Source of the DNA: Deltaproteobacteria bacterium
GTDB lineage: Bacteria; Desulfobacterota; Desulfomonilia; UBA1062
Length of the DNA: 64,000 nucleotides
Assembly: GCA_017992605.1 (NCBI GenBank)
Contig: JAGOOG010000001.1
Span: 134,655-198,654 of the forward strand
Reading direction: 5' to 3'
The position numbers and the translations under genes were made by a program. Of this stretch, positions 45,511 through 48,411 are shown in pieces. Under the pieces are notes generated by a model. The model saw nothing but the letters and a program-made list of their open reading frames with translations, had not been told where the DNA came from and did not search any database. Each line of letters starts with the position of its first letter. Positions within the stretch are counted from its first letter, which is position 1.

Positions 45511-45549
45511 TTGACAGGAAGGGGGAGCACAGTAATACTAAGTAATACT
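45511..45549 (+). promoter_or_regulatory. Promoter of the RHH-znu unit with tandem palindromic operators
   Basis: TTGACA (45511-45516), 16 bases, TAATAC (45533-45538). The -10 lies inside two copies of the palindrome AGTA-A-TACT, at 45531-45539 and 45541-45549, spaced exactly ten bases, one helical turn. Such tandem half-turn-phased short palindromes suit cooperative ribbon-helix-helix dimers. Binding would occlude the -10. The adjacent gene encodes an RHH protein, so autorepression is likely. Confidence 0.65.
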
Positions 45550-45574
45550 TACGAGAGACAGGAGGCATGCAGCC

Positions 45575-45829
45575 ATGAAAAAACAGGGCATCGTCACCTT
45601 CAAGGTGGACGAGGGGCTCTTCGAGGTCATCAGGGACATACCGAACCGCTCAGAATTCATCAGGAACGCGATACTTTCCGCCCTGGGGAACATCTGCCCG
45701 CTGTGCAACGGCACCGGGATCCTCACCCCGAACCAGAAGGGCCACTGGGACGAGTTCTGCAGGGACCACGAGGTCCAGACATGCCTGGACTGCAGCGAAC
45801 GTCACCTCGTGTGCATGTCCGGCAGGTGA
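45575..45829 (+). CDS. Ribbon-helix-helix regulator with C-terminal Cys/His metal-binding domain
   Basis: An 84-residue protein. Residues 1-36 form a ribbon-helix-helix unit: strand GIVTFKVDEGLFEVI and the helix pair RSEFIRNAILSAL. The remaining 46 residues are rich in metal ligands: CPLCNGTG, GHWDEFCRDH, CLDCSERH and a final Cys, that is two CxxC plus further Cys and His. This looks like a metal-sensing tail fused to a NikR/CopG-like DNA-binding domain. It lies 28 bases ahead of znuA with AGGAGG at its own start, so it probably senses Zn2+ and controls uptake. Function is inferred; I recognise no named family. Confidence 0.75.
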   Translation: MKKQGIVTFKVDEGLFEVIRDIPNRSEFIRNAILSALGNICPLCNGTGILTPNQKGHWDEFCRDHEVQTCLDCSERHLVCMSGR

Positions 45830-45857
45830 GGACGCTCCATTCGGGGGGGAGGGCTCC

Positions 45858-46790
45858 ATGATCGTCCCACGGTGCAAAGGCATACCGGGAAACGCGATCA
45901 GGTTCTGTGCCGCGGTCGTGACGGCATCGCTCGTCACGGTGGTCCTGTCCGCCGTGGCATGGGCTGACCATGGTCCCAGGCTCAGGGTGTTCACGACCGT
46001 CATACCCCAGAAATACTTCGTCGAGAGGATAGGGGGCGACCTTGTGCAGGTGGACGTCCTGGTCGGCCCGGGACAGTCGCCCCACACCTACGAGCCGACG
46101 CCGAAACAGATGGCACTGCTCGGGGAGGCCTCACTTTTCTTCAGGGCCGGTATCCCGCTCGAAAACACCCTTATCTCGAAGATAACCCGTGCGTACCCGG
46201 GGCTCAGGGTCGTGGACACGAGGAAGGGGGTCGAACTGCTCACTCTCGACGATCACCCTGGCCAGCACGGACATGGGAAAGGGGCACCGGATCCCCACAT
46301 ATGGCTGGATCCCTCGAGGGTGAAGATTCAGGCGCGTACCATCTGCGAGGCCCTGGTGCTGGCAGACCCCCCCGGGGCACGGGTGTACCGCGGCAACCTG
46401 GCAGCCTTCCAGGCAGACCTGGACAGGCTCGACGAAGAGCTCAGGACCATCTTCGCCCCGGTGGGGGGCTCGAAGATCTACGTCTTCCATCCCGCCTTCG
46501 GATATCTGGCCGATGCCTACGGTTTCTCCCAGGTATCGGTGGAGGCCGGGGGGAAAGAGCCGAGTGCACGCCAGCTCGCACACCTGGTGAGCCGGGCGCG
46601 GGCTGAGGGTGTACGGGTCGTCTTCGTCCAGCCGCAGTTCTCGAGGAAGAACGCCCAGGCCGTGGCCAGGGCGATCGGTGGGGTTGTCGTCCCCATCGAT
46701 CCCCTGCCCGAGGATTACATCGGGGAGATGAAAAAGATGGCCCGAACCATCAGGGACTCGCGCTCGGGCGATCACCGAGGCGGCTGGTGA
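45858..46790 (+). CDS. znuA: Periplasmic zinc-binding protein ZnuA (cluster A-I)
   Basis: A 310-residue high-affinity metal-binding protein. It has a signal peptide (residues about 15-36) and then VFTTVIPQKYFVERIGGD, the cluster A-I start. GQSPHTYEPTPKQ provides His1. A short His-rich loop DDHPGQHGHGKGAPDPHIW near 135 holds the acidic/His loop and His2. VFHPAFGYLADAYG (His3) and a closing DP-rich segment follow. The His-rich loop indicates Zn2+ over Mn2+. It feeds znuC and znuB immediately downstream. Confidence 0.92.
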   Translation: MIVPRCKGIPGNAIRFCAAVVTASLVTVVLSAVAWADHGPRLRVFTTVIPQKYFVERIGGDLVQVDVLVGPGQSPHTYEPTPKQMALLGEASLFFRAGIPLENTLISKITRAYPGLRVVDTRKGVELLTLDDHPGQHGHGKGAPDPHIWLDPSRVKIQARTICEALVLADPPGARVYRGNLAAFQADLDRLDEELRTIFAPVGGSKIYVFHPAFGYLADAYGFSQVSVEAGGKEPSARQLAHLVSRARAEGVRVVFVQPQFSRKNAQAVARAIGGVVVPIDPLPEDYIGEMKKMARTIRDSRSGDHRGGW

Positions 46791-46805: not shown

Positions 46806-47570
46806 ATGGATAATGGAGGGACCATGGTCGTGGAGTTTGAGATGGTGTCCTTTGCCTATGACGGCATCACGGTCATCGAGGACGTCTCATTCGGAATCGA
46901 GCGGGGCGATTTCCTCTCCATCGTGGGCCCCAACGGGGGGGGCAAGACCACCATACTCAAACTCATGCTCGGGCTCTTCAGGCCGCGCACGGGCGAGGTG
47001 CGGGTGTTCGGCGACCAGCCGGAGAAGGCCCGCTCGCGCATCGGGTACATGCCGCAGAACACGTCGCTGGACCCCCTCTTCCCGGTCAGCGTGAAGGAGG
47101 TGGTCCTCATGGGCCGGCTCGGTGCTTCCTCGATGCTCGGGTTCTATTCACGGGCCGACCGCGTCAGGGCCGAGGAGGCCCTGGACATGGTCGAGATGAA
47201 GCGCTTCATGACCCGGCCGTTCTCCTCGCTGTCCGGGGGACAGTCGCAGAGGGTGCTCCTCGCCAGGGCGCTCGTCACCCAGCCTGAACTGCTCATACTG
47301 GACGAACCCACCTCCAGTGTCGACATGGCCGTGGAGAGCGAGCTCTACGAACTCCTCAGGAAGCTCAATGAAGCGATGACCATCGTGCTCGTGACCCACG
47401 ATCTCGGGTTCGTGTCCAAATACGTGAAGAATGTGGCCTGCGTGAACAGGAGGCTCGTCTCCCACCCGACCTGTGACATATCCGGGGAGACGATCAGCGC
47501 CATCTACGGCCACGACATGCACATGATCAGGCACGACGCCATATCCGGCCGGGGACACCGCCATGACTGA
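46806..47570 (+). CDS. znuC: Zinc ABC importer ATPase ZnuC
   Basis: A 254-residue ATPase. Walker A is GPNGGGKTTIL near residue 39, the Q-loop YMPQNTSLD near 80, the signature SLSGGQSQRVLLARAL near 141, Walker B LLILDEPTSSVD near 164 and the switch VLVTHDLGFVS. It ends with a His-containing tail (RGHRHD). Start ATG 46806 follows a G-rich site; ATG 46824 is an alternative. The stop overlaps the znuB start by eight bases. It pairs with ZnuB. Confidence 0.92.
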   Translation: MDNGGTMVVEFEMVSFAYDGITVIEDVSFGIERGDFLSIVGPNGGGKTTILKLMLGLFRPRTGEVRVFGDQPEKARSRIGYMPQNTSLDPLFPVSVKEVVLMGRLGASSMLGFYSRADRVRAEEALDMVEMKRFMTRPFSSLSGGQSQRVLLARALVTQPELLILDEPTSSVDMAVESELYELLRKLNEAMTIVLVTHDLGFVSKYVKNVACVNRRLVSHPTCDISGETISAIYGHDMHMIRHDAISGRGHRHD

Positions 47571-48411
47571 ATTCCTGTCCGACCTGACCAGACACGCCTT
47601 TCTCCAGTATGCCCTCCTTACCGGGGTCCTTGCAGGCATCGCCTGCGGCATCGTGGGGACCTACGTGGTGACCCGGCGCATCGCCTCGGTGGCCGGGGCC
47701 ATCGCCCACAGCATCCTCGGGGGCATGGGGGCCGCCCGCTACTGCCAGGTGGTCCTGGACTGGCAGTGGTTCCACCCCCTCATCGGGGCGGTCCTGGCCG
47801 CCATCATCTCCGCCGTCATCATCTCCTGGGTGAGGATCGCGGCGCAGGAGCGTGAGGACACCGTCATAGGGGCGGTGTGGGCCATCGGCATGGCCGTGGG
47901 TCTTCTCTTCATCTTCAGGACGCCGGGGTACAACGAGGACCTCATGAGCTATCTCTTCGGCAGCATCCTCATGGTGACGCCCGAGGACCTCTGGCTCATC
48001 GGCGGCCTGGACGCCCTCGTGGTGGTGCTGGGCCTCGCGTTCTACAACAAGTTCCTGGCCGTGTGCTTCGACGAGGAGTTCACGAGGATCAGGGGGATAC
48101 GGGTAGAGGTCTACCACACCCTGCTGCTCTGCCTGACCGCGCTCACCGTGGTGCTGCTGGTGACGGTGGTGGGCATCGTCATGGTGATCGCGCTGCTCAC
48201 CCTGCCCGCAGCCACGGCAGCACATTTTTCCAGGAAGCTCTGGCACATGATGATCCTCTCGTCAGTGTTCACGGTCTTCCTGACCACCGCGGGCATGGCC
48301 ATCAGCTACGGGCCCGACCTCCCTGCCGGGGCCACCATCATCATCCTGGCGGGGATCTTCTACATCTCGGTGGTCGTGTTCACACGGATGAGAAGGAGAG
48401 CGGGCGCCTGA
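47563..48411 (+). CDS. znuB: Zinc ABC importer permease ZnuB
   Basis: A 282-residue inner-membrane permease of the ZnuB/MntB family with about eight TM helices. AGIACGIVGTYVVTRRIASV begins the fold; the ATPase-contact EDLMSYLFGSILM and the tail VGIVMVIALLTLPAATA are typical. The ATG overlaps the end of znuC. It completes the zinc uptake system with the RHH regulator, ZnuA and ZnuC in one transcription unit. Confidence 0.92.
   Translation: MTEFLSDLTRHAFLQYALLTGVLAGIACGIVGTYVVTRRIASVAGAIAHSILGGMGAARYCQVVLDWQWFHPLIGAVLAAIISAVIISWVRIAAQEREDTVIGAVWAIGMAVGLLFIFRTPGYNEDLMSYLFGSILMVTPEDLWLIGGLDALVVVLGLAFYNKFLAVCFDEEFTRIRGIRVEVYHTLLLCLTALTVVLLVTVVGIVMVIALLTLPAATAAHFSRKLWHMMILSSVFTVFLTTAGMAISYGPDLPAGATIIILAGIFYISVVVFTRMRRRAGA

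Follow-up and report, generated by a model that had tools for sequence, protein, structure and literature searches.

Architecture of the locus

The window, the whole stretch of 64,000 nucleotides analysed here, contains a short gene for an 84-aa protein followed by three genes for a zinc-type ABC transporter. The features of this locus are:

45511..45516, + strand: -35 hexamer TTGACA, read from the sequence and also chosen by a promoter scan
45532..45548, + strand: operator GTAATAC-TAA-GTAATAC, two 7-bp palindromes, found in the sequence as the sole exact match in the genome
45533-45538, + strand: -10 hexamer TAATAC, within the first operator unit and 16 bases after the -35
45560..45565, + strand: Shine-Dalgarno sequence AGGAGG of the regulator gene, 9 bases 5' of the ATG at 45575
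45575..45829, + strand: gene of the 84-aa regulator, an ORF encoding an RHH domain and a Cys/His tail
45858..46790, + strand: znuA, zinc-type substrate-binding protein (Pfam ZnuA, 1.6e-71; solved match 1pq4, 4e-59)
46806..47570, + strand: znuC, ATPase (Pfam ABC_tran, 2e-32)
47563..48411, + strand: znuB, permease (Pfam ABC-3, 1.1e-68)

A preliminary description of this DNA had proposed a promoter of the form TTGACA-N16-TAATAC, and both the sequence and the promoter scan confirmed it (45511-45516, then 45533-45538). The ORF agreed with the 84-residue protein described there, with an N-terminal ribbon-helix-helix (RHH) domain and a tail containing two CxxC pairs, more Cys and His, and Pfam matches verified that znuA, znuC and znuB lie downstream. 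The same description had noted two 9-base palindromes spaced by ten bases, one of them over the -10. In the window, these are indeed present (AGTAATACT at 45531-45539 and 45541-45549), with centres 10 bp apart and the -10 held within the first. However, the unit conserved among homologues is the 7-mer GTAWTAC and not the 9-mer, and elsewhere the operator lies on the -10 or on the start region in differing registers.

The best solved relative of the window ZnuA was the zinc-uptake binding protein 1pq4 (4e-59), with which its three His ligands ('phtyep', 'dphiw' and 'vfhp') could be aligned. Together with a His-rich loop, DDHPGQHGHGKGAPDPH, these ligands give the protein the features of the ZnuA type. 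As ZnuABC-type transporters can also carry Mn or Fe, zinc is the presumed metal.

The RHH domain of the regulator spans approximately residues 5-37, and its tail contains CPLC (C41, C44), H57, H65, CLDC (C70, C73) and C80. The protein matched no family in Pfam. In NCBIfam, we obtained a weak match to the RHH model aCcr1 (4.4e-6, residues 6-35), which is under the cut-off of the model, and Pfam RHH_1 was matched in one homologue at 0.0076 only. The FK of the TFKV strand and the NRSEFIR of helix 2 are conserved, as in the RHH superfamily. An AlphaFold monomer of moderate confidence (pLDDT 77, pTM 0.35) places the RHH helices at residues 13-19 and 25-36, a further helix at 52-64, and two strands around the second CxxC pair. 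A fold search with this model returned no significant match and no solved relative, and the only match in a search of solved structures was a weak CPxCxGxG similarity to anti-TRAP proteins (E=0.002).

Distribution and gene context of the regulator family

One protein scan of a species-level genome collection yielded 21 loci, in assemblies of Deltaproteobacteria/Thermodesulfobacteriota, Planctomycetota/Phycisphaerae/Brocadiaceae and Spirochaetaceae. Whole-genome searches found the family in 32 of 60 relatives. Phylum-wide, 34 of 395 genomes contained it (31 strong matches), as did 16 of 294 genomes in a Planctomycetota-centred search (8 strong, the remainder weak variants) and 32 of 393 genomes in a Spirochaetota-centred search. 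No regulator homologue was found in the plasmid records searched.

The species-level scan and the relatives, phylum and Planctomycetota searches provided 63 distinct full-length homologues, drawn from Desulfobacterota and Planctomycetota, with a few from Spirochaetes. In all 63, C41, C44, C70, C73, C80 and H65 are kept, and H57 is kept in 61. Homologues of znuA, znuC or znuB lie downstream of the regulator in 54 of these 63; five others precede a membrane protein of 210-230 aa, one lies at a contig edge, and three Spirochaete homologues have neither neighbour. The homologues are thus not scattered over non-metal loci, an outcome that the preliminary description would have taken as refutation. 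Clustering at 70% identity left 34 representatives, among which 29 were linked to znu genes, 4 to the membrane protein, and 32 had the operator.

In the Spirochaetota sample, which includes AT-rich genomes, znu genes were found beside 21 of 31 distinct homologues, and the operator accompanied 19 of these 21 and 2 of the 10 others. Over a set of 94 homologues, presence of the operator went with linkage to znu genes (Fisher p=1e-6, with kinship ignored), and both features persist across three phyla among proteins sharing 50-80% identity. On the other side, the ten Spirochaete homologues, together with L017, L018 and L020, have no znu linkage and, for the most part, no operator, which counts against the zinc-repressor reading. 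A set of Spirochaete homologues (L017-L020, L178, L179, L186, L187, L195 and L196) keeps the Cys ligands without a znu neighbour or operator; these lie beside other genes, such as GAF/HD-GYP, and a change of target may have taken place in this group.

The membrane protein found in place of znuABC (L012:2333-2962, L016:469-1164, L092:858-1472 on the minus strand, L093:1847-2461 and L095:730-1341 on the minus strand) has multiple helices and invariant His, Cys, Asp and Glu residues, for example in PHxGHVxLSTWAS and PCCxxD. It matched no Pfam or NCBIfam family, and a fold search of its model gave no significant match. We consider it a candidate new zinc transporter.

A fixed operator at homologous promoters

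The preliminary description had suggested looking for the palindrome pair upstream of homologues and would have taken a lack of recurrence as refutation. The pair does recur: GTAWTAC-N3-GTAWTAC is present at 58 of the 63 homologue promoters (score of at least 12/14). The consensus over these 58 promoters is GTA(A/T)TA(C) N3 GTA(A/T)TA(C/A), and the spacing between centres is fixed at 10 bp. Dinucleotide shuffles of the upstream regions reach the score of 12/14 in 0.17% of cases, and in the 2.71-Mb window genome the exact operator occurs once, the next best sites carrying 2 mismatches. Its single occurrence in the genome and its frequency at homologous promoters relative to shuffled regions argue that the operator is not due to chance.

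Of 59 homologous promoters, 51 have a TTGAC(A)-like hexamer within a limited set of distances from the operator. The gaps between the -35 and the operator cluster at 3-6 bases (29 promoters), 14-16 bases (6) and 26-31 bases (11), so that an operator unit either forms the -10 or covers the start.

Operator sites in trans point to metal-uptake genes

In 60 regulator-bearing genomes we found 26 exact operator sites, compared with 1 for the reversed control. Sixteen of them belong to the promoter of the regulator itself and 10 lie elsewhere. At least 7 of these 10 precede separate znuA-type genes, TonB receptors or members of one outer-membrane protein family. In G024, where the regulator operon has znuC and znuB without znuA, the trans site lies at a divergent pair of genes for ZnuA and an outer-membrane protein; in G603, it lies at a ZnuA-type gene. 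Outer-membrane proteins of the same family as that of G024 have trans operators in G028 and G025, and in G028 the gene is followed by one for a His-rich protein and then by the regulator-znu operon. In G208, G093 and G231, the operator precedes genes for a His-rich small protein and a TonB receptor. Among the remaining trans sites, that of G385 (G385:C17) has only a porin-like gene, and 2 of the 10 have no metal gene. The operator is thus found at zinc-uptake genes both in cis and in trans.

Among 60 genomes that lack the regulator, we found 2 exact sites. One is the promoter of a znuA/outer-membrane protein pair in an assembly that is 81% complete. The other (L155:3211, in G010) is an identical 17-bp operator upstream of an RHH antitoxin-like gene, which is followed by a RelE-like gene.

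The outer-membrane barrel-like family, of 580-630 aa, is found under the operator in four genomes (G024, G028, G025 and G041; L139, L140, L141 and L154) and shares the motif WEF..G.F.W.YEWYNQ..KGFFG.YNVD; the one member scanned matched no Pfam family. At L136, L137 and L138, the operator stands in front of a gene for a small His/Cys-rich membrane protein (LHPWLHxH...HGPCALCAFLAHF), followed by one for a TonB-dependent receptor.

Other transporters and Fur-family genes

Relatives have second ABC-3 operons of a different build. The four that we inspected, which encode a permease with a DtxR-type fusion, had neither regulator nor operator. The one such permease scanned consists of ABC-3 fused to the C-terminal domain of an iron-dependent repressor, with weak matches to MntR, an arrangement typical of Mn/Fe transporters. 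No Fur-family gene was found within 6 kb of the 30 RHH-linked permease operons, compared with 5 of 31 other permeases (p=0.053, a suggestive difference), and all five Fur-linked permeases belong to genomes without the RHH regulator. The three Fur homologues of the window genome adjoin katG, feoB-like and rubrerythrin genes, and from these neighbours they look like PerR/Fur proteins and not like Zur.

Relation to known regulators

MetJ, Arc and CopG bind short palindromes repeated about one turn apart through cooperating adjacent RHH dimers. The operator described here has the same type of repeat, whereas these three proteins have no metal tail and respond to other effectors. The RHH precedent is NikR, which also combines an RHH DNA-binding domain with a C-terminal metal module and targets a metal-uptake operon. 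NikR proteins are about 130-150 aa long, whereas the regulator has 84 aa, Cys-rich ligands and ZnuABC as targets. Its tail of only 47 aa gave no Pfam match to the C-terminal nickel-binding domain of NikR. The NikR site in Deltaproteobacteria is GTGTTAC-N13/14-GTAACAC (PMC545781), the half-sites of which differ from GTAWTAC by one base. The gap between half-sites, however, is 3 bp (one turn) in 58 of 63 promoters of the regulator family and 13-14 bp for NikR, so the NikR spacing is absent.

Zur resembles the regulator in what it controls (znuABC, separate znuA genes and TonB receptors) and in having its operator at the promoter, but has another fold and another operator; the Fur winged-helix domain PF01475 was not matched in the regulator. 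In describing a candidate non-Fur regulator of zinc uptake, the preliminary account had overlooked AdcR/ZitR, a known non-Fur zinc-uptake repressor (PMC6372160, PMC6103462). The RHH candidate of that account is supported by znu linkage, by the operator and by trans sites at metal-uptake genes. AdcR/ZitR, described from streptococci and lactococci (PMC6372160), has the winged helix-turn-helix of the MarR family and not an RHH fold, and no MarR winged-helix domain was matched in the regulator in Pfam or NCBIfam.

According to a review from 2018, zinc import is regulated by Zur, of the Fur type, and AdcR, of the MarR type (PMC6103462). Rodionov and colleagues (2004) reported znuABC without Zur or a Zur box in G. 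metallireducens, Desulfuromonas and D. psychrophila, and proposed that regulation was absent or that there was 'another regulatory mechanism' (PMC545781). The RHH family is a concrete candidate to fill this deltaproteobacterial gap. Our search of the open-access literature turned up no previous account of an RHH regulator of zinc uptake, and within it the terms 'ribbon-helix-helix' and 'znuA' never occur in the same paper. Few of its papers join 'ribbon-helix-helix' with 'zinc uptake' or 'zinc homeostasis', and those read describe no RHH zinc regulator. A Paracoccus CopG gene whose expression is altered on zinc depletion (PMC5387054) has no sequence link to the regulator.

Proposed mechanism and alternatives

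We propose that the 84-aa protein belongs to a new RHH family and represses zinc uptake, together with its own gene, in a zinc-dependent way, and give this reading a probability of about three in four. As a genomic prediction, a new family of RHH metalloregulators directed mainly at zinc uptake has good support. Sequence comparison establishes the family and its gene linkage, the operator with its spacing and position, the members of the predicted regulon and the invariant ligands. We infer that the protein binds DNA, that zinc is its effector and that the holo rather than the apo form represses, zinc sensing with holo-repression being the most likely mechanism.

According to this model, each GTAWTAC palindrome of the operator would be bound by one RHH dimer, and the two dimers, side by side at a distance of one helical turn on the promoter core, would block RNA polymerase. 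The 10-bp geometry would suit two adjacent dimers that occupy the same face of the helix, and hence repression by occlusion, a reading of the geometry that rests on the RHH structures of MetJ, Arc and CopG. The tail, CPLC...H...H...CxxC...C, would be the zinc-binding module. While zinc is sufficient, the metal-loaded regulator would hold the operator; as zinc falls, it would let go, and its own gene and znuABC would be expressed. In relatives, release would also turn on separate znuA genes, TonB receptors and outer-membrane proteins.

The protein could also be a true repressor of the operon in which zinc is structural, the signal being thiol oxidation, another metal (Cd, Mn, Fe or Ni) or its own concentration. 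Many small zinc ribbons are purely structural, and the Cys tail could be such a site; CxxC pairs also serve as redox centres, and the tail shows a weak similarity to the CPxCxGxG modules of anti-TRAP, in which zinc is structural. We nevertheless consider this account unlikely, given that seven near-invariant ligands exceed the needs of one tetrahedral site, that the targets are metal-uptake genes, including TonB receptors, separate znuA genes and a COG0523-like gene, and that none of the four DtxR-fused transporter operons inspected is among them.

The direction of allostery is not given by sequence alone, and the apo protein might instead repress or activate, for example as an activator of zinc uptake upon zinc loss. 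This seems very improbable: where a -35 can be recognised, the operator almost always lies over the -10 or the start, which fits repression, and an apo-active repressor would work backwards, because uptake genes need derepression at low metal. Finally, RHH folds are common in antitoxins, and in G010 the identical operator precedes antitoxin-like and RelE-like genes, which would be consistent with an antitoxin, or another regulator of mobile elements, that merely lies upstream of znuA. With no toxin partner and with the znu context and operator conserved over three phyla, we rejected this explanation, the chance of which appears negligible.

If the zinc-repressor reading is right, the protein would be a third kind of bacterial zinc-uptake regulator beside Zur and AdcR, in at least three phyla, and with 84 residues among the smallest metal sensors. 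We somewhat favour the broader view that a third fold class of zinc-uptake repressor, a minimal protein made up of an RHH and a zinc module, replaces Zur in parts of Desulfobacterota, Planctomycetota and Spirochaetota, with an envelope-wide regulon that would include two undescribed transporter families, the 210-230 aa membrane protein and the 580-630 aa outer-membrane protein. As a search pattern, the operator could reveal new zinc transporters, and it already indicates these two unnamed families.

Divergent members of the family

Weaker planctomycete relatives (L099-L106) have the same RHH together with a CPxCxGxG-type motif; their Cys tails are longer or otherwise different and they lack a clear metal-gene neighbour, pointing to a possible wider superfamily. 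At L185:783-2086 lies one of the two Spirochaetota homologues that have an operator but no znu neighbour; its operator is weaker (12/14), and the next gene encodes a P-loop GTPase with a GCMCC motif, which from this motif we take to resemble the COG0523 zinc metallochaperones. Another homologue (L147:1539-2867) is divergent from a gene for a CDF-type cation exporter and is itself followed by znuC/znuB-like genes. Four regulator paralogues are present in the single genome G603 (L148-L151), three of them near metal transporter operons of the ABC-3 type.
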